Positions 46,208-55,914 of a DNA stretch of 64,000 bases are shown here, one piece after another. A program made the translations under genes and the position numbers. The stretch is taken from the NCBI GenBank assembly GCA_002898275.1, contig BEIQ01000001.1, positions 62,001 through 126,000 on the forward strand, written 5' to 3'. Under the pieces are notes generated by a model, which worked only from the letters and a program-made list of their open reading frames with translations, was not told the DNA's origin and searched no databases. This DNA comes from a bacterium HR40. Lineage in GTDB: Bacteria > Pseudomonadota > Alphaproteobacteria > Geminicoccales > Geminicoccaceae. Numbering within the stretch: position 1 is the stretch's first letter; each line of letters opens with the position of its first letter.

Positions 46208-47380
46208 TCAGCGCAGAGCCTGGTCGAGATCGGCGACCAGATCGTCGAGATCCTCGAGGCCGACCGAAAGCCGTAGGAGATCCTCGGAAATACCGAGGGC
46301 TTCGCGCTCCGCCGGCGCCATCTTGGAATGGGTGGTGCTCGCCGGATGGGTCGCGAGGCTCCGCACATCGCCCAGATTGTTGGAGATGCGGACGATCCGC
46401 AGCCGGTCGAGCACTTCGAAGGCACGCCGCCGACCGCCGCCGACGCGGAAGGCGAGGATGGGTCCACCCGCCCGCATCTGGCGCATGGCGAGCGCGTGAG
46501 CGGGATGGCTCTCGAGACCCGGATAGAGGACTTCGGCGACTCCCGGATGGCTGGCGAGAAAGCGGGCGAGGGCGAGGGCGCTTCGGCTTTCCGCTTCCAC
46601 CCGCAAGGCCAGGGTCTCGAGCCCCTTGAGGAGCAACCACGCGTTGAAGGGCGACAGCGACGGGCCGGTATGGCGCAGCCAGGGTACGAGGATGTCGCGC
46701 TTCACCTTTTCGCTCGACAGGATCACCCCGCCCAGACAGCGGCCCTGACCGTCGATGTGCTTGGTCGCCGAATAGACGACGATATCGGCGCCCAAGGCCA
46801 AGGGCTTCTGCAGGACCGGAGTGGCGACGACATTGTCCACCACCACGATCGCCCCGGCGGCATGGGCGAGCTCGGCCACCGCCGCGATGTCGATGATCTC
46901 GAGGGTCGGATTGCCCGGTGTCTCGAACAGCACGATTCGCGCGGGACGGGCGAGCGCTCGCTCCCAGGCAGCGAGGTCGGTGCCGTCGACGAGCTCGACG
47001 GCGATCCCGAAGCGCGGCAGGAACTGGTCGAGGACGATTCGCGTCGAGCCGAAGAGCAGGCGGCTCGCCACCACGCGGTCGCCGACCTGGAGATGCGCCA
47101 TGAGGGTGCCGAAAATGGCGGCCATGCCGGAGGCCGTGGCGCAGGCGGCCTCCGCCCCTTCGAGCAGTGCCATGCGCTCCTCGAACATCTGGCTCGTCGG
47201 ATTGCCGAGCCGCGAGTAGGTGAAACCTTCCTCGCGTTCGGCGAACCGCGCCTCGGCGACCTCGGCCCGTTCGTAGACGAACCCCGAAGTGAGGAAGATG
47301 GCTTCGCTGGTCTCGCCAAAGGGCGTGCGGCGACTGCCGCCGTGCACGAGAAGCGTCGAAAGCCCGCGCGCTCCGTCCAT
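46208..47380 (-). CDS. metZ: O-succinylhomoserine sulfhydrylase
   Basis: A 390-residue PLP enzyme of the Cys/Met gamma-family, making homocysteine from O-succinylhomoserine and sulfide. It has GFTYSRLGNPTSQMFEERMALLEGAE (quoted in part: YSRLGNPTSQMFEER), ASGMAAIFG, FETPGNPTLEI, the PLP lysine in YSATKHIDGQGR, and NLGDVRSLATHPASTTHS. The Asp-Gly-Gln after the lysine is a MetZ trait. The 5' leader carries a SAM-II riboswitch and a terminator, so SAM represses it. Confidence 0.94.
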   Translation of the reverse strand: MDGARGLSTLLVHGGSRRTPFGETSEAIFLTSGFVYERAEVAEARFAEREEGFTYSRLGNPTSQMFEERMALLEGAEAACATASGMAAIFGTLMAHLQVGDRVVASRLLFGSTRIVLDQFLPRFGIAVELVDGTDLAAWERALARPARIVLFETPGNPTLEIIDIAAVAELAHAAGAIVVVDNVVATPVLQKPLALGADIVVYSATKHIDGQGRCLGGVILSSEKVKRDILVPWLRHTGPSLSPFNAWLLLKGLETLALRVEAESRSALALARFLASHPGVAEVLYPGLESHPAHALAMRQMRAGGPILAFRVGGGRRRAFEVLDRLRIVRISNNLGDVRSLATHPASTTHSKMAPAEREALGISEDLLRLSVGLEDLDDLVADLDQALR

Positions 47381-47526: not shown

Positions 47527-47609
47527 GCCTGCGGGGCGACCGGATGGCCCTTGACCCCGCCGTCCGCCGGCAGACCTTGCCGAGCGAACCTGCGAGAAAA
47601 GCCGATTCC

Positions 47610-48584
47610 ATGGTCTCCCGCAAGCCCGTCCCGTCGCCCGGCCGCCGCAGCCCGGACCGCCTGTCGCCTCGCTTCGAGCTCGAAGCCGTGCTCGCGAGTG
47701 TGGTGGGCGTGCGTGCGCGCATTCCCGAGGACGCCACCACCGCCGCCACCCTCGGTACCGAACGCTCGGGGAGCGGGGTGTGCATCCACGAACGCGGACT
47801 CGTGCTCACCGTGAGCTATCTGATCTGCGAAGCGGAAGAGATCTGGCTGCGCACCGCCGACGGACGGGTGGTCCCCGGCCATGTGCTGGCCTGCGATTTC
47901 GAATCCGGTCTCGGATTGATCCAGGCCCACGGCGAGCTCGGCTGCGCGCCGAGCGAGTTCGGCTCGGCGGCAAGGCTGCGCGTAGGGGCGCGAGTGTGGC
48001 TCGCCGCTGCTGGGGGACGCGAAGCGGCCCTTTCCGGCGTCCTCGTGGCGCGCCGCGAATTCGCTGGCTACTGGGAGTACTGGCTCGAAGAGGCGCTGTT
48101 CGTCGCCCCGGCCCATCCTCACTGGGGCGGGGCGGGATTGTTCGACGAGGACGGCCACCTCGTGGGCATGGGCTTGCTGTTCGTGGAGACCGGGGAAGCG
48201 GCGCGGCCGGACCGTATGACGATGGCCGTACCGGTCGACTTGCTGCCGCCTATCCTCGACGATCTGGTCTACCGCGGTCGTCGCCGCACGCCGCCGGTCC
48301 CCTGGCTCGGGCTGCATGTGGCGGAGACGGCAAACGGACTCGTGATCGCTGCCGTTCTCCCCGGTAGTCCCGCCGAGCGCGCCGGCCTCGAGGTCGGTGA
48401 CCGGATCTTCGAGGTCGCGGGTGTGCCCGTCGCCGAGCTTGGCGACTTCCTGCGGCAGGTGCGGGCCCTCGGGCCCGCCGGCACGGCGGTCCCGCTGCGC
48501 ATTTTGCGCGACGACGCCCGCCTCACCGTCGAGGCGATCTCGGCCGATCGCAACGACTTCCTGCGTCGCCCCGACCTTCATTGA
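47610..48584 (+). CDS. HtrA/DegP-like protein with lost catalytic triad and one PDZ domain
   Basis: A 324-residue protein with a trypsin-like domain (residues 25-215) and a PDZ domain (about 225-315: LPGSPAERAGLEVGDRIFEV). Against HtrA the His (LTNNHVV) reads LTVSYLI, the Asp (TDLALL) reads SGLGLIQ, and the Ser (GNSGGP) reads HWGGAG, so all three catalytic residues are gone. It lacks a signal peptide. It is probably a scaffold or sensor. ATG 47544 is an earlier start option. Confidence 0.85.
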   Translation: MVSRKPVPSPGRRSPDRLSPRFELEAVLASVVGVRARIPEDATTAATLGTERSGSGVCIHERGLVLTVSYLICEAEEIWLRTADGRVVPGHVLACDFESGLGLIQAHGELGCAPSEFGSAARLRVGARVWLAAAGGREAALSGVLVARREFAGYWEYWLEEALFVAPAHPHWGGAGLFDEDGHLVGMGLLFVETGEAARPDRMTMAVPVDLLPPILDDLVYRGRRRTPPVPWLGLHVAETANGLVIAAVLPGSPAERAGLEVGDRIFEVAGVPVAELGDFLRQVRALGPAGTAVPLRILRDDARLTVEAISADRNDFLRRPDLH

Positions 48585-48650: not shown

Positions 48651-49517
48651 CTACTTGAGGGTGATCTCGACCCGCCGGTTCTGCGGCTCCCGCACGCCGT
48701 CGGCCGTGGGCACCCGAGGTCTGCGCTCGCCGTACCACTCGAGCTGCATCGCCTCCATGGGGACACCTTTTTCGGCGAGATAGCCGGCGACGGCACGCGC
48801 CCGGCGCTCCGACAGGCGCTCGTTGTACGGCTCGGGACCGGAGCGGTCGGCATGACCCGCGAGAATGAGACGCGCCGCCTTGCCCTTGCCGTATTCGGCC
48901 GCCACCTGGTCGAGGACTTCGGCCGCTACCGGCGAGATGTCGGCGCGATCCCAGGCGAAGAACACGACGTAGACGTTCTGGATGCCGGCCGCGAGCTGCT
49001 GGTCGACCTCCTGCATCGCCTGCTCGAACTCGGCCTTGCAGGCGGCCGCCCCTTCGGCATCGCGCTCCTCCTCCTGCTCCAGCCAGCAGTCGAAGGCGGT
49101 CTGGGCCCGGGCCGAAGGCAGCGGTGCGATGCGGCGGGCATCCTGTTCGAAGGCCGCCATGAGCCGCGCCCGCGCGGCCGAGAGTTCGCCCACCCGCTCT
49201 TCGGGCAACTTGCGTAGCTCGAGGGCATCGGGCTGGACGAAGATTCCCTTGGCCGAGGCGACCGCCTTGCGGGCGAAATGGATGGCGTCGCGGTAGTCGG
49301 TGACGGCATATTCGGCGTCGGCGAGCGGCAGATATCCCGCCCTCAGACCCTGCACGAACGCCGGACCGTTCGGCTGCATGCCGCGCACTGCCTCGAGATC
49401 GTGCATATAGAGATCGACATCGTCCATGGCGTCGGGATTGATCGTCTGCAGCCCGGCGCAGCCGGCGAGAAACCCGCACAGCGCTCCCGCTGCTAGAAGT
49501 CTGACGCCCTTGCGCAT
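48651..49517 (-). CDS. OmpA-family lipoprotein
   Basis: A 288-residue outer-membrane lipoprotein: signal with lipobox LAGC at residues 18-21 and a C-terminal OmpA domain (VYVVFFAWDRADISPVAAEVL, quoted in part: FFAWDRADISPVAAEVL, LAGHADRSGPEPYNERLSERRA and PQNRRVEITLK). The 150-residue middle part is helical and not recognised. It should link the outer membrane to peptidoglycan. AAGGGA precedes ATG 49517. Downstream is a terminator. Confidence 0.93.
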   Translation of the reverse strand: MRKGVRLLAAGALCGFLAGCAGLQTINPDAMDDVDLYMHDLEAVRGMQPNGPAFVQGLRAGYLPLADAEYAVTDYRDAIHFARKAVASAKGIFVQPDALELRKLPEERVGELSAARARLMAAFEQDARRIAPLPSARAQTAFDCWLEQEEERDAEGAAACKAEFEQAMQEVDQQLAAGIQNVYVVFFAWDRADISPVAAEVLDQVAAEYGKGKAARLILAGHADRSGPEPYNERLSERRARAVAGYLAEKGVPMEAMQLEWYGERRPRVPTADGVREPQNRRVEITLK

Positions 49518-49739
49518 CGCAAATCCCTTCGCGTGCACGATGTTGCAGCTCGAGGCGATCGAGGAAGCCGTCGCCGCGGCGAGCCCGAGGCAACCAGCCT
49601 GCGCTCCGGCGCGCATAACAGGGCAAAGGGCGGCTGCGATCAAGCCGTTTCTAGCGGGTCGCGCGGCTCGATCCGCCACTGTTGCCGGCTTCCAACGACC
49701 CCCGCGAGCCGCACTCGAGGCCCAATCACCGACCAGGGA

Positions 49740-50522
49740 TCAGCGGCCGGTGACCGTGTAAGCGTCCGCCAGCACGTCGAAGTAGCGAGCGATCCGTTCC
49801 ACCTCTTCCCGCAGCGCCTGCAGCCGGGCCGCATCCCCTCCCTTCCGCTCCAGCTCTTCGGCCAACATCGCCGCCGTCACCGCGCCAATGTTGCGGCTCG
49901 CACCCTTGAGGGCATGTGCCGGTTCCCTCACCTCGTTGCCCGAGGCGAGGGCGTTCTCGATGCGCTCGAGATATTGGCGCGCGGTCGCGACATAGAGGGT
50001 GCCGATCTCCACCATCAGTTGCAGGTCCTCGCCTGTCGCGGCCTGCAGTCTCGCCAGATCGACTGGCGGACGATCGCGCATATCGGCAGGTAGCGGCCGC
50101 TGGCCGGATTCCCGCTCGGCCGCAGGTGCGAAACGCGGCTTCATGGTGAGCTCCCGGATCACCCCCAGCCAGCGTCCGATCGACAGCGGCTTGGCGAGAT
50201 AGCCCTGGAGACCGGCCTCCTCGCAGGCGCGCCGCACCGCCGCCTCGTCCCAAGCGTCCCCGAAGACCACGATCGGCACTTGCCGCAGAGGCCTCAGCTC
50301 GCGGCGCAGCCGTTTGGCGAACTCGAGACCGCTGCCGCCCGGTAGCTGCAGGGCGACAAAGATCAAGTCGTAACGGTTGGCGGCCAGCATGGCGCGAGTG
50401 TCATCGACGTCGAGGGTGCAATCGACCCGGTAGCGCAGGCGATTGAGGACGAGCTCCATGAGATTGCGGCTCAGAGCCGGATCGCCGACGATCAGCAGAC
50501 GCTTCGCGAGCTGGGCGGACAC
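49740..50522 (-). CDS. Degenerate receiver domain fused to an HPt domain
   Basis: A 260-residue protein. Residues 5-120 have the receiver fold (LLIVGDPALSRNLMELVLNRL, quoted in part: LLIVGDPALSRN; YDLIFVALQLPGGSG; YLAKPLSIGRW). The phospho-acceptor Asp is replaced by Ala (VALQLP) and the acidic pair reads GD, but the Lys is kept. Residues 160-250 form an HPt domain with the phospho-histidine in AHALKGASRNIGA. It could take phosphate on His without receiving it on the REC domain. No kinase is nearby. GTG start at 50522. Confidence 0.87.
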   Translation of the reverse strand: MSAQLAKRLLIVGDPALSRNLMELVLNRLRYRVDCTLDVDDTRAMLAANRYDLIFVALQLPGGSGLEFAKRLRRELRPLRQVPIVVFGDAWDEAAVRRACEEAGLQGYLAKPLSIGRWLGVIRELTMKPRFAPAAERESGQRPLPADMRDRPPVDLARLQAATGEDLQLMVEIGTLYVATARQYLERIENALASGNEVREPAHALKGASRNIGAVTAAMLAEELERKGGDAARLQALREEVERIARYFDVLADAYTVTGR

Positions 50523-50597: not shown

Positions 50598-51530
50598 TCA
50601 ACCACAAGGCGGATTCGCCGAGCCGGCGGCGCAGGCCACCGCCAATCGCGCCGCCAGTCGAGCATTGGCCGTCGCCAAAGCGATATTGAGACGCACCGTT
50701 CGCCCAGCGGTTGCGCGGGCGAGGAAGGCCAGCAGGAACGGCGTTTCCTCCGCCCCTGCCACCTCCGACCGACGTGCCTCGGCGAGGGCGGCCTCGAGCA
50801 GTCGGGCGAATTCGTCGGCCTCGAGCGCGAGGTCGGCGGGGGGTGGCTGGGTCACCACGAGGCTCGTGGGCTCGCCGAGGGCGAGATGGGCCCGCCACAG
50901 GCGAACGAACCCGGCCTCGTCGGCAACCGCCGGAATGCGCAGGCCGGTGCGGGCGACATAGAAGCCCGGCAGATCCGTCGTGCCGAAGCCGACGACCGTC
51001 ACTCCCAGGCTCTCGAGCATCTCGAGGGTGCGCGCGAGGTCGAGGATCGCCTTCGGGCCCGAGCACACGACGGTCACCGGCGAGCGGGCGAGCTCGAAGA
51101 GATCGGCCGAGACATCGAGGCTCAGTTCGCCGCCCCGGTGGACGCCGCCGATGCCGCCGGTGGCGGCGAAGCGGATCCCGCAGCGGCGGGCGACATGGAT
51201 GGTCGCGGCGACGGTTGTGCCGCCGATCGCTCCGTCGGCCACCGCTCGGGCGAGATCGCGCGTCGACGTCTTGCGGGGGTGGGCGGCCGTCGCCAGGCGC
51301 TCGAGCTCGGACTCTCTCAGGCCCACCCGCACCTGGCCATCGAGCACGGCGATCGTCGCCGGCACGGCACCGGCGTCCCGCACCGCCCGTTCGAGGGCGA
51401 GGGCCGTCTCGAGATTGGCAGGGCGCGGCAAGCCGTGGGTCGTGATCGCCGTCTCGAGGGCGACGACCGGATGACCACGGGCCAGGGCCGCCTCGACCTC
51501 GGCCGCGAGGACGACCACCTCGGGGGTCAT
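50598..51530 (-). CDS. psuG: Pseudouridine-5'-phosphate glycosidase
   Basis: A 310-residue PsuG/YeiN protein that splits pseudouridine phosphate into uracil and ribose 5-phosphate. Family segments are VVALETAITTHGLPRPANLE (active Glu and His), GGTTVAATIHVARRCGIRFAATGGIGGVHRG (quoted in part: TVAATIHVARRCGIRFATG-like; AATGGIGGVHRG) and VCSGPKAILDLARTLEML with the catalytic Lys. ATG 51530 overlaps the preceding stop as ATGA. No pseudouridine kinase gene is adjacent. Confidence 0.93.
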   Translation of the reverse strand: MTPEVVVLAAEVEAALARGHPVVALETAITTHGLPRPANLETALALERAVRDAGAVPATIAVLDGQVRVGLRESELERLATAAHPRKTSTRDLARAVADGAIGGTTVAATIHVARRCGIRFAATGGIGGVHRGGELSLDVSADLFELARSPVTVVCSGPKAILDLARTLEMLESLGVTVVGFGTTDLPGFYVARTGLRIPAVADEAGFVRLWRAHLALGEPTSLVVTQPPPADLALEADEFARLLEAALAEARRSEVAGAEETPFLLAFLARATAGRTVRLNIALATANARLAARLAVACAAGSANPPCG

Positions 51531-52684
51531 CCGACCAGCCCGGCAGCCTCGGCGCTCGCCAGGGCGGCGTCGAGATCGGCGAGGAGATCCGCCGGATCCT
51601 CGATACCGACCGAGAGCCGGAGGAGATCGTCGGGCACCGGGCTGTCCGGCCCCTCGACCGGCTTGCGATGCTCGATCAGGCTCTCGACCCCACCGAGCGA
51701 GGTCGCCTGCTTGAAGATGCGGGTCGCGGCTGCGACCGCGGCGGCTGCCGGCCCGCCGCCTCGCACTCGGATCGACAGCATGCCACCGAAACGCCCCTGC
51801 ATCTGGCATGCTGCCACCCTGTGGCCCGGATGGTCGGCGAGACCCGGGTAGAGCACCGCGACCACTCTCGGGTCGCCAGCGAGATGGCGGGCGATGGTCA
51901 TGGCGCTCGCGCAGGCACGTTCGAAGCGGAGGGCGAGGGTGCGCATGCCGCGCAGCAGAAGCCAGGCTTCGAAAGGTCCCAGCACCGCCCCGCGATCGTG
52001 GCGGAGGGCGCGCAGGCGGTCGAAGACCTCATCGGCGCATGCCGTCACCACGCCGCCGGCGACCAGGTCGCTGTGGCCGTTGAGGTACTTGCTCGCCGAG
52101 TGCACCACGAGATCGGCGCCGAGCGAAAGGGGACGGGTGGCAAGGGGAGTGGCGGCTGTCGAATCGACCGCGACCCGTGCTCCCGCCGCATGGGCGAGGC
52201 GCACTGCCGCGGCGATATCGGTGATCGTCCACAGCGGGTTGGCTGGAGTCTCGATCCACACCAGCGCCGTCGCCAGCCGGTCGAGGGCTGCGGCGAGCGC
52301 TCCGACATCGGACATATCGACGAAGCCGACCCGCAGGCGGCCCGAAGCATGCTGGTCGCGCAGCCAGCGGCGCAGGTTCCAGTACATGACTTCCGGCGCG
52401 AGCACTCCGGCGCCGGCCGGCAAAGCCTCGAAGACCGCGGTCGCCGCCGCCATACCGGAAGAAAACAGGAGCGCCTTCGAACCGCCCTCCAAGGTGGCGA
52501 GCAGGTCTTCCGCGATCGCCGCTACGGGATTGTCGTCCCGGAGATAGACGAGGCCACTTCCGCTGCGCCGCTCGAAGGTGGAGCTCGCCACGAGCGGCGG
52601 CACGAGCGCTCCGGTCGCCGGATCGACGTATCCGCCCGCTTGGGCGAGCAGGGTCGCGGCGTGAACGGTCCCGTCCGCGCTCAT
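51527..52684 (-). CDS. Cys/Met-metabolism PLP-dependent enzyme
   Basis: A 385-residue aminotransferase-fold enzyme of the cystathionine synthase/lyase family: FSSGMAAATAVFEALPAGA, ETPANPLWTITDIAAA, PLP lysine in VHSASKYLNGHSDLVAGG, and SLGGVESLIEHR. Unlike metZ at 46208 it lacks the Lys-His-x-Asp-Gly-Gln motif and reads Lys-Tyr-Leu-Asn-Gly-His, as in cystathionine gamma-lyase/synthase types. The exact reaction is not clear. It overlaps both neighbours by 4 bp. Confidence 0.88.
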   Translation of the reverse strand: MSADGTVHAATLLAQAGGYVDPATGALVPPLVASSTFERRSGSGLVYLRDDNPVAAIAEDLLATLEGGSKALLFSSGMAAATAVFEALPAGAGVLAPEVMYWNLRRWLRDQHASGRLRVGFVDMSDVGALAAALDRLATALVWIETPANPLWTITDIAAAVRLAHAAGARVAVDSTAATPLATRPLSLGADLVVHSASKYLNGHSDLVAGGVVTACADEVFDRLRALRHDRGAVLGPFEAWLLLRGMRTLALRFERACASAMTIARHLAGDPRVVAVLYPGLADHPGHRVAACQMQGRFGGMLSIRVRGGGPAAAAVAAATRIFKQATSLGGVESLIEHRKPVEGPDSPVPDDLLRLSVGIEDPADLLADLDAALASAEAAGLVG

Positions 52685-53058
52685 CCCCGCTCCACCCGCA
52701 CCGGCGCGCCGTCCGTCACTCCCGAAAGCGAGCGCACATCGCCGATCGCCCGTCCCCAGATGTTGCAACGGCTGGCGAGCCGGCATTCGCCGGCGCGCGA
52801 GATCGGCGTCGGGCCGAAGGCGATAGCGATGGCGTCGCCCTCCGGCCAAAAGGCGAGCTCTCCAGGGGCGACGATCTCGCGGGCATCGGGCTCGCGGGGC
52901 TGGCTCACCGGGGTCGTGAAATAGACCTCCTCCCCCCAGGTGTTGGCGACCGACTGAAACGGTGCGGCCTGCCAAAGGGCCTCGGCGGTGGGCGTGTCGA
53001 AGAGCTCGGCCTCGAGCGTGACACCGCCGATCTCCATACGCAGCCGACGCAAGGTCAT
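52681..53058 (-). CDS. Cyclophilin-like fold protein
   Basis: A 125-residue protein of the cyclophilin-like superfamily (TM1367/DUF369/DUF3830-like): LEAELFDTPTAEALWQAAPF near residue 15, WGEEVYFTTPV, GELAFWPEGDAIAIAFGPTP and NIWGRAIGDV. These resemble cyclophilins in fold but lack their active Arg, and they have no established function. GGAGGCGAGCG precedes ATG 53058. It overlaps both neighbouring genes by 4 bp (ATGA). Confidence 0.82.
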   Translation of the reverse strand: MTLRRLRMEIGGVTLEAELFDTPTAEALWQAAPFQSVANTWGEEVYFTTPVSQPREPDAREIVAPGELAFWPEGDAIAIAFGPTPISRAGECRLASRCNIWGRAIGDVRSLSGVTDGAPVRVERG

Positions 53059-53939
53059 CGCTCGCCTCCTTCCTGCGGGCCGGCCGCCGGCAGCGGGCCG
53101 ACCTCGAGCTCGACGGTCTCCTCGGTGCCGCGAACCGTCCCGTCGCGCCACGCTCGCCTGAGGGCGAGGAAACCTGCCTCGCTTCCCCCGCCGCGCGCCA
53201 GCAGCTCGCGCACCCGCTCGGATCCGCCCGCATCGACCGCCACACAGCGGACGACGACCACTCCCGGGGGCGGGGCAGCGACCGGTCGCGCCTCGCGCCC
53301 GGCAAACAGGCGTTCGACTCGGCCAGCTCGCAGGCGCCGAGGCTCGCTGCCGGGGCGCGGCACGAGCGGCTCGACCATTCCTTCCTGCTCGCCGAAGCAA
53401 TGGAGGATCGCCTCGAAGTTGGCAACTATCCGCAAGTCGATGGGCTCGCCGTAGCCATACCGCAGGTCCGGGCGGTTCGGCGCGTAGAGGAAGAGGTCGG
53501 GCGCCACCTCGGACATCAGCTGACGCTCGAGCGCGGCCGCCAGCTCCTCGCGGCAGCCGGCCCGGGCGAGTCTCTCGAGCCCAGCCTGTTCCGAGCAGCC
53601 AGCCGCCGACGCCGGCGCTGCGCCGCGCGTCGCCCCGGTGCGCAGGCCCGCGGGTGCGGGGGCGAACAGCTGGCGCACGAGGGCTCCGAGACGCTCCCAC
53701 TGCCGCGGGCCAGCCGCTCGCGAAGCCGCAGCAGCGCCGGCCTCGCCGCGGGTCAGAAGACGTCCGTCCTCGCCCATCAAGGTCACCGAGGCGCCTGCCT
53801 CGACGGTAAGGCGGGCCGGGTCCTCGACCAGCGTGCCGGGAGGTATGCCGGGCGAGCTCGAGGCGATCACCAGCCAGCCCGAGAGGGCTTGTGCGCCGAC
53901 GGGAAACCGGAACATGCTGAAGGCGAACCGTCGGCGCAT
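53055..53939 (-). CDS. FecR-like N-terminal domain protein, unknown
   Basis: A 294-residue protein. Residues 10-60 (SGWLVIASSSPGIPPGTLVEDPARLTVEAGASVTLMGEDGR, quoted in part: ASSSPGIPPGTLVED, LTVEAGASVTLMGEDGR) resemble the surface-layer FecR-type repeat often encoded beside CHASE2 cyclases. The rest contains three cysteines in a helical part and a domain with DLFLYAPNRPDLRYGYGEPIDLRIV (quoted in part: DLFLYAPNRPDLRYGYGEP). No signal peptide is obvious. Its start at 53939 nearly abuts the divergent cyclase gene. Confidence 0.7.
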   Translation of the reverse strand: MRRRFAFSMFRFPVGAQALSGWLVIASSSPGIPPGTLVEDPARLTVEAGASVTLMGEDGRLLTRGEAGAAAASRAAGPRQWERLGALVRQLFAPAPAGLRTGATRGAAPASAAGCSEQAGLERLARAGCREELAAALERQLMSEVAPDLFLYAPNRPDLRYGYGEPIDLRIVANFEAILHCFGEQEGMVEPLVPRPGSEPRRLRAGRVERLFAGREARPVAAPPPGVVVVRCVAVDAGGSERVRELLARGGGSEAGFLALRRAWRDGTVRGTEETVELEVGPLPAAGPQEGGER

Positions 53940-53991
53940 GCGGGACTCGCTGACTTCGCGGGCGCCGGCAGAGAAGCCGGTTGTCGGCGAC

Positions 53992-55914
53992 ATGCCGGAA
54001 CATCCTGCCGCGCTGGTGCGCTGGCTCGGCATGGCTGCCATCCTGGGCGTGGCAACGGGGGTCGCAGCCCTCGTCGACCTGTTCACGCCACTGCGCGCGC
54101 TCGAGAACGTGCTCGATGACCTTCGCCTAGTGTACCTCGACCGGCCGCGCTCGCAACATCCGTTTGTCGCCATGGTGGTCATCGACGAGCGCTCCCTCGC
54201 CGCTCGGTCGTGCCGCAGTCCGATCGACCGCGACCTGCTTGCCGACCTCGTGGCGGAGATCGCCAAACGCCAGCCGCTCGCCATCGGCCTCGACGTGCTG
54301 TTCGACCGCCCGGGCGAGCCGACGGCGGATGCGCGGCTGCGCGATCGGCTCGCCACCCTTGCTCCACCCGCGGTCCTCGCGGCGCCCGCCGTCCCCCCTG
54401 CCGACCCGGAACGGGCTGCCTTCCTCGCTTCCATGCTGGCGGTAGGGGAGATGGCCGATGCCTCGCTGCTGCTCGAGCCGGTCGACGGCTTCGTGCGGGC
54501 GGTGCCGCTGCGCGATGACGCGGGCCGGCTCGGATTCGCGGCAGCGCTGGCGGCACGGGCAGGGGTCGTGCTCCCCGAAGAGCGGGAGCTTCGCATTCGC
54601 TGGCGGCTCGGACCCGACCCGCGGACTCCGCCGTTTCGCGTCTACCCGGCGTTCGCGCTGCCATGGCTCCCGGCCGATTGGCTCGCCAACCGGATCGTAC
54701 TCGTCGGCGCCATTCTCGAGGACAGTGACCGGTGGCCGACGCTGCTGTCCCGTCTGCCAGGGGCGCCGTCGCTGACCGGGCTCGAAATCCACGCCCAGGC
54801 TCTCGCCCAGCTCCTGGACGGAGAGTCGCACCCCAGGGCTGCGCCGCTGCTCTCCGCTCTCGTCGTTTTGATGGCGGCAGCGAGCGGCCTGTGGCTCGCC
54901 GCGCGCACCCACCGACCTCGCACCCTTGCGTTCTCGCTCCCGCTCGTCGGCTGCGCTTGGCTGGCGGTCGGGCTCGCCGGCCAACCCCTGGGTCTCGGTC
55001 TCTTGCCGGTAGCGCCGACCCTATTGGCCCTCGCCATCGCCACCGGGTCGGGCATCGCCGTCTACCGGCGCGCCGAGTGGCGGCAACGCCGTCAGCTCGA
55101 GCGGGCGTTCGCCCACTATCTCGCCCCGGCGGTCGTGCGCCGGATCGCCGCCCGTCCCGACCGGCTCGAGCGCGCGGCGGAGCGTTCGGAGCTCACGGTG
55201 CTGTTCTCCGATCTCGAGGGGTTCACTCCGCTCAGCGAACAGCTCCCGCCCGAGCAGGTGGCGGAACTGCTCGCCGGCTATTTCGACGGCCTCGTCGAGA
55301 CGGTGTTCGCACACGAAGGGACCGTCGACAAAATCGTCGGCGACGGCATGCATGTGCTCTTCGGTGCGCCCGAGCCTCAACCCGACGACGCTGCTCGCGC
55401 CGTTCGTTGCGCTCTGGCCATGCTCGACGTCGCGGCGGGCCACCGGGCACTCTGGATGCGACGCGGCGTCGCCCTCGGCCGCACCCGCATCGGTATCGCC
55501 CGCGGGCCAGTGCTCGTCGGTCATTTCGGTGCGAGCCACCGCTTCGACTACACGGCCCATGGCGACGTGGTGAACACCGCCGCCCGTCTCGAGCAGGCCA
55601 ACAAGCTCCTGGGCACCGTTGCGCTGGTCAGCGAAAGCGTCGTCCTCCGCTGTCCGGAGCTCGTCTTCCGGCCGGTCGGGGTGCTGCAGTTGCGGGGCAA
55701 GCGCGAACCCGTGCGCGCCTTCGAGCCGCTCGCCAGCAGGCCGGAATGGCTCGCGGACTGGGAGCGCGCCTTTGCCGCGACTGCCGAGGGGCAGGAGGAT
55801 GCCCTCGCCCTCTTCCAGGAGCTGCTGCCGCGGCTGCCCGAGGATCCCGTGTTGCGTTTCGTCCTCGACCGTCTGACGCGCGGGCAAAGGGGCGAGCGGT
55901 TCGACCTGGCCTGA
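53992..55914 (+). CDS. CHASE2-domain adenylate/guanylate cyclase
   Basis: A 640-residue membrane sensor cyclase. An N-terminal TM helix, an extracytoplasmic CHASE2 domain (about 45-280) and three more TM segments (280-360) precede a class III cyclase domain. Metal aspartates are in FSDLEGFTPLSE and VGDGMHVLFG, the substrate Lys in TVDKIVGD, and the transition-state Asn in HGDVVNTAARLE. It should make cAMP or cGMP in response to an outside signal. The CRP-type regulator at 24256 is a possible reader. Start uncertain; ATG 53938 is the alternative. Confidence 0.92.
   Translation: MPEHPAALVRWLGMAAILGVATGVAALVDLFTPLRALENVLDDLRLVYLDRPRSQHPFVAMVVIDERSLAARSCRSPIDRDLLADLVAEIAKRQPLAIGLDVLFDRPGEPTADARLRDRLATLAPPAVLAAPAVPPADPERAAFLASMLAVGEMADASLLLEPVDGFVRAVPLRDDAGRLGFAAALAARAGVVLPEERELRIRWRLGPDPRTPPFRVYPAFALPWLPADWLANRIVLVGAILEDSDRWPTLLSRLPGAPSLTGLEIHAQALAQLLDGESHPRAAPLLSALVVLMAAASGLWLAARTHRPRTLAFSLPLVGCAWLAVGLAGQPLGLGLLPVAPTLLALAIATGSGIAVYRRAEWRQRRQLERAFAHYLAPAVVRRIAARPDRLERAAERSELTVLFSDLEGFTPLSEQLPPEQVAELLAGYFDGLVETVFAHEGTVDKIVGDGMHVLFGAPEPQPDDAARAVRCALAMLDVAAGHRALWMRRGVALGRTRIGIARGPVLVGHFGASHRFDYTAHGDVVNTAARLEQANKLLGTVALVSESVVLRCPELVFRPVGVLQLRGKREPVRAFEPLASRPEWLADWERAFAATAEGQEDALALFQELLPRLPEDPVLRFVLDRLTRGQRGERFDLA

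Follow-up and report, generated by a model that had tools for sequence, protein, structure and literature searches.

The gene at 47610..48584 of the window, the whole 64,000-nucleotide stretch analysed here, probably encodes a repurposed HtrA pseudoprotease that stays in the cytosol and acts as a non-catalytic binding protein. All three catalytic residues are missing from it, and across its relatives triad loss is, judging by the sequences, a family-wide state and not a one-off decay. The sequence comparisons show that this loss is conserved, that the protein is under constraint, that it has no visible signal peptide and that the family is a single clade in which exported forms branch first. 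An earlier note on this DNA had suggested a cytosolic pseudoprotease with a PDZ domain; this description is supported by the family-wide loss of the triad and of Gly193, the absence of an invariant His or a visible signal peptide, and the strict retention of other residues.

The reading frame lies on the forward strand, begins with an ATG at 47610 and encodes 324 amino acids, its stop codon ending at 48584 (ORF list, Pfam and hydropathy); starting at the in-frame ATG at 47544 instead would lengthen the protein by 22 residues. Pfam finds a Trypsin_2 domain (E 1.3e-15), the catalytically degenerate HtrA protease fold, at 47769..48170 (+), residues 54–187 counted from the Met at 47610. A PDZ domain follows at 48303..48533 (+, PDZ_2; the best-scoring PDZ model is PDZ_6, E 6.3e-12). 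This is the HtrA/Deg (S1C) architecture of a trypsin-like domain followed by PDZ, and it was recovered by Pfam and by alignment to DegS, DegP and an HtrA of the same genome, with residues 47–309 aligning to DegS (phmmer E 2e-16). The NCBIfam Do and DegS models match weakly, the Do-family model TIGR02037 giving 72.3 bits, below its cut-off of 416.2, and no dedicated Pfam or NCBIfam model was found among the matches of the protein. Fold prediction from the single sequence of the window protein was unusable (mean pLDDT 32.9). The PDZ domain had been described as intact; this is true of the domain match and of the W-L-G loop, but the Arg that usually precedes this loop (Arg in 142 and Lys in 15 of 167 family members) is replaced by Val230.

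Which residues occupy the catalytic positions? As the earlier note had stated, a Tyr stands at catalytic His57 (Tyr70, 47817..47819, +) and a Gly at catalytic Asp102 (Gly100, 47907..47909, +). The Trp that had been assigned to the catalytic Ser is probably off by one: Trp172 (48123..48125, +) falls at Asn194, just before the nucleophile position, and Gly173 (48126..48128, +) is most likely the residue that replaces Ser195. Four kinds of alignment give this register: (i) the first DegS alignment (chain 3gcn), with Trp172 under the Asn and Gly173 under the Ser of GNSGG; (ii) MAFFT alignments with three and then four triad-bearing HtrAs; (iii) the family profile against two DegP-like chains; and (iv) BLASTP against the HtrA of the same genome, in which the stretch is ungapped. 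The DegS chains 6ew9 and 1soz, which read HGNSGG, dissent and place Trp172 under Ser at the cost of extra gaps. We favour the former register because 36 family members then read Ser-Gly at 195–196, where Gly196 is present in 167/167; a Ser-to-Trp replacement is thus the less likely assignment. In both registers Ser is missing from the window protein, so that the loss of all three catalytic residues stands.

The surroundings of the former active site have changed as well. Position 193, a Gly in the four triad-bearing HtrAs, is His in the window protein, which thus lacks the oxyanion-hole Gly193; family-wide, Gly is found there in a single member, with a gap in 4 and another residue in 162 (n = 167), and an oxyanion hole is therefore unlikely. 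A displaced but complete triad was also rejected: no His column is invariant (the best reaches 138/168), and the sole Ser column above 90%, S189, is Leu in the window protein.

Conservation was counted over the 167 distinct members fetched, and the replacements proved to recur in related genomes. Position 57 is Tyr in 166 members and His in one, and position 102 is Gly in all 167. Position 194 varies more (Trp 137, Phe 22, His 6, Tyr 2), as does position 195 (Gly 114, Ser 36, Ala 11, Thr 2, Asn 2, Gln 1, Pro 1). The members that keep Ser195 (L016, L018, L019 and 33 others) carry Tyr57 and Gly102 in 36/36 cases; since Ser195 persists in 36/167 although His57 and Asp102 are gone, position 195 seems only weakly constrained. 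Other residues are strictly kept: R52, E74, W155, E156 and Y157 each reach 167/167. The last three form an invariant Trp-Glu-Tyr motif within FAGYWEY (48072..48080, +), at a site that reads (Y/F)-(D/E)-(D/E) in the four triad-bearing HtrAs; R52, E74, W155 and Y157 are not at equivalent places there, and the place of E156 is acidic there too. The window protein carries all of these family marks (Y57, G102, G196, R52, E74 and W155-E156-Y157, the last five numbered as in the window protein). No Cys column in the family reaches 60%.

As controls we took TIGR02037 and TIGR02038 matches from the class together with the four HtrAs used earlier, 51 rows of which 49 are distinct, and all 49 retain His, Asp and Ser. 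These are the best-scoring matches to curated protease models, a choice that favours intact enzymes; intact triads are the rule among the clear proteases of the class, but other HtrAs may still have lost theirs.

How widespread is the family? Relatives occur in 25 of the 31 genomes of the order, that of the window included (E <= 1e-25). A class-wide search of 386 genomes with a 30-row alignment as query (E <= 1e-30) gave matches in 101, or 100 once G326 is removed: its match (2e-31) is a triad-bearing HtrA (L172), and the best E-values of the other 100 genomes are all <= 9.4e-74. Two matches were found in 36 of the 101 class-search rows and three in one, some of them pieces of one gene. In a phylum-wide search 42 of 397 genomes matched, G326 among them, and two of the 42 belong to another class; around one of these two, 16 of 40 genomes, itself included, contain matches. 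The relatives with organism names come from plasmids of Rhizobium, Neorhizobium, Azospirillum, Phyllobacterium and Pararhizobium (26 records, each at less than 60% identity). Because these 26 bear alphaproteobacterial genus names, the family is likely to belong to the Alphaproteobacteria, and it is probably both large and old. A scan of viral contigs found no relatives, and the sole match in named genome contigs, a Bacillus locus, covers 60 residues of the PDZ region and was not counted as a member.

Some members deserve separate mention. Genome G118, about 1.2 million bases in size, retains an exported-type member (L153), and another genome of about that size (G364) also has a match. In the other class, five loci from genomes around G587 (L197-L201) branch off as a divergent group in which residue 194 is His and residue 195 is Ser, and four of them (not L199) also lack two residues ahead of 194. 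Three further HtrAs of the Do family lie above cut-off in the genome of the window, all with His, Asp and Ser. In a 2008 survey of 91 genomes, 42 of 966 serine proteases were counted as putative inactive homologues (PMC2605481). Among the open-licence literature matches listed, titles and abstract beginnings contained no description of the present family.

Bacterial HtrAs carry a signal peptide or a membrane anchor. Neither is seen in the window protein by hydropathy alone, from either start: the highest hydropathy of any 16-residue window within the 75 residues ahead of the domain is 1.19, against at least 1.77 in the members called exported (n = 37). A signal peptide hidden at the alternative start was considered and rejected, as the 22 extra residues from 47544 bring no hydrophobic segment. 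The absence of a signal peptide asserted in the earlier note is thus borne out, and we infer a cytosolic location, a call based on hydropathy. By this measure 96 of 140 members look cytosolic, 37 look exported and 7 are intermediate. Of the 96 cytosolic-looking members, 95 have Trp at position 194; the 37 exported-looking ones have Trp (17), Phe (17), Tyr (2) or His (1). An N-terminal Asn-Gly-His motif is found in several members (L088, L093, L094, L096, L097, L106, L167, L168 and some others), and the weakly hydrophobic stretch that follows it in some may be the remnant of a signal peptide. In one survey 11.16% of eubacterial PDZ proteins were predicted to be cytoplasmic (PMC6411480); on that figure, a cytosolic PDZ protein would be uncommon, yet not unheard of.

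In what order were the triad and the export signal lost? A FastTree phylogeny of 168 family rows and 51 control rows places the family in one clade with 0 control rows inside, on a stem of 1.54 substitutions per site with moderate support (0.81). In another tree, built from 144 sequences, a basal grade consists mostly of members whose N-terminus is hydrophobic, and the cytosolic type, including the window protein, is nested; support is low at several inner nodes, and some low-hydropathy members (e.g., L152 and L163) fall in the basal part. The simplest order compatible with this topology would begin with an exported HtrA that lost its triad. The dead, still exported form would then have acquired the new invariant residues and been retained, and one descendant line would later have lost the signal peptide and become cytosolic.

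The genomic context offered no guide to function. The gene stands alone, between the divergent metZ on its left (46208-47380, −; O-succinylhomoserine sulfhydrylase, TIGR01325 above cut-off) and a convergent gene with an OmpA domain on its right (48651-49679, −; Pfam). A hairpin lies between the pseudoprotease gene and the OmpA-domain gene, in a stretch that folds only slightly better than its shuffled versions (z −1.2). We clustered the ORFs neighbouring L068-L173 (106 stretches, of which one surrounds the intact HtrA L172) and those of the window: among the larger groups, those listed, none is a gene that adjoins the family throughout. What recurs with the window in these groups is the pseudoprotease gene itself, its antisense frame, matches to the PLP enzymes of the window and one large neighbour; some genomes have neighbours in common with each other, for example several exported-type loci and pairs of near kin. 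An operon or conserved neighbourhood as a clue to function was accordingly dropped, the clustering having produced no partner. Further features of the region include two Cys/Met-metabolism PLP enzymes of one homology group (46208-47380 and 51527-53425, about 4 kb apart, both on the reverse strand) and a fusion of a response-regulator receiver with an Hpt domain at 49740-50522 (−), in which the Pfam scan found no DNA-binding domain. A long ORF at 53638-55914 (+) appears from its translation to combine a membrane part with a C-terminal adenylate/guanylate cyclase-like part.

What could such a protein do? In the proposed mechanism, Tyr70, Trp172 and the Trp-Glu-Tyr motif have altered the former substrate groove, which would act with the PDZ domain to hold client peptides or C-termini, and the window protein would serve as a binding protein, an adaptor or a holding chaperone. 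We infer that groove and PDZ domain bind protein ligands, that the protein forms HtrA-like trimers and that it has a scaffold or adaptor role while staying in the cytosol. A bolder proposal, which we regard as tentative, extends this to the whole family, present in roughly one in four of the class genomes sampled: an exported dead copy would have come first and then lost its signal peptide, giving rise to a non-catalytic hub for peptide binding in the cytosol, and a pocket of Tyr57, Trp194 and Trp-Glu-Tyr would recognise a conserved cytosolic ligand.

The pseudoenzyme could instead regulate an active protease, by joining mixed trimers or by activating or titrating it, much as MamO activates MamE. 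MamO promotes MamE-dependent proteolysis, and according to its authors the pairing of active and inactive proteases recurs in magnetotactic bacteria (PMC4794232). Ordinary HtrAs match in 31/31 sampled genomes. However, Do-family HtrAs are periplasmic, and the three in the genome of the window all belong to this family, whereas the window protein looks cytosolic; mixed trimers are therefore unlikely for the cytosolic form, and the groups listed from neighbour clustering show no shared neighbourhood. We consider a regulatory function of this kind improbable for the window protein; exported members may form mixed trimers.

There is also a slim chance that the new invariant residues form a site for a small molecule or a metal instead of protein ligands. 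The protease domain of MamO binds metal through two surface histidines (PMC4794232), and the invariant Arg, Glu, Trp and Tyr residues of the family are unlike those of triad-bearing HtrAs. Yet a transition-metal site like that of MamO is unlikely with neither an invariant His nor a Cys column at 60%, and the PDZ domain favours peptide ligands.

At some near-invariant positions of the family the window copy has a different residue, as a decaying gene on its way out would: S189 is Leu (Ser in 164/167), N204 is Thr (Asn in 165/167) and W285 is Arg (Trp in 159/167). Decay is nevertheless very unlikely, with an open frame, the invariant motifs in place and relatives in most genomes of the order. 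Moreover, when the gene was compared with nine relatives (293 codons each), differences were in excess at the third codon position (0.47–0.60, against 0.31–0.38 at the first and 0.27–0.33 at the second). This excess and the invariant motifs suggest that the protein is under purifying selection. The departures, Val230 included, could mean that binding is weakened or shifted in this copy, so that it may have another PDZ ligand than most relatives have.

Finally, a protease with an unusual catalytic arrangement could draw on Ser195 in 36/167 members, Tyr57 in nearly all and Glu74, Glu156 and Tyr157 in every one, but is barely credible when 131/167 lack Ser195, when Gly takes its place in the window protein and Leu that of S189, and when both an invariant His and Gly193 are absent.

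A pseudoprotease family of this kind matters for annotation. Of four relatives whose annotation was opened, three are named 'S1C family serine protease' and one 'signal protein PDZ', so that proteins without a triad enter the count of proteases; the Trp-Glu-Tyr motif and the catalytic columns would tell the two apart. With exported and cytosolic branches side by side, the family may offer a natural test, on a large scale, of how a protease fold becomes a binding protein, and tractable organisms, among them Azospirillum brasilense Sp 7 (L070) and Rhizobium gallicum (L073), contain members.

How does the protein compare with known systems? HtrA/Deg proteases assemble as trimers. DegP, DegQ and DegS (HtrA, S1C) have the same trypsin fold followed by PDZ and are the best matches among solved chains; the window protein differs from them in lacking the triad, Gly193 and a visible signal peptide. 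Inactive Deg proteins of plants likewise combine Deg/HtrA domains with missing or substituted triad residues, but in the plant and algal cases covered by the part of the source drawn on here the losses are scattered and follow no common replacement pattern (PMC3473262). PflC of Campylobacter jejuni is another HtrA-like protein with a PDZ domain that has lost its triad and found a structural, scaffolding use; in contrast to the window protein, it is periplasmic, has a protease:PDZ:PDZ layout, has lost the His loop and forms part of the flagellar motor (PMC12222027). MamO of magnetotactic Alphaproteobacteria, whose chain is absent among the 60 listed of 206 PDB matches to the family profile, is likewise HtrA-like, with a degenerate triad, a bulky loop L1 Trp and a residue other than Gly at 193 (PMC4794232). 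It is a magnetosome protein that binds metal via two histidines; its Trp stands at 192 and is followed by Glu at 193 (PMC4794232), whereas that of the window protein stands at 194. No His is invariant in our family. MamO illustrates that the site of an HtrA fold can be closed by a loop L1 Trp and a residue other than Gly at 193 (PMC4794232).
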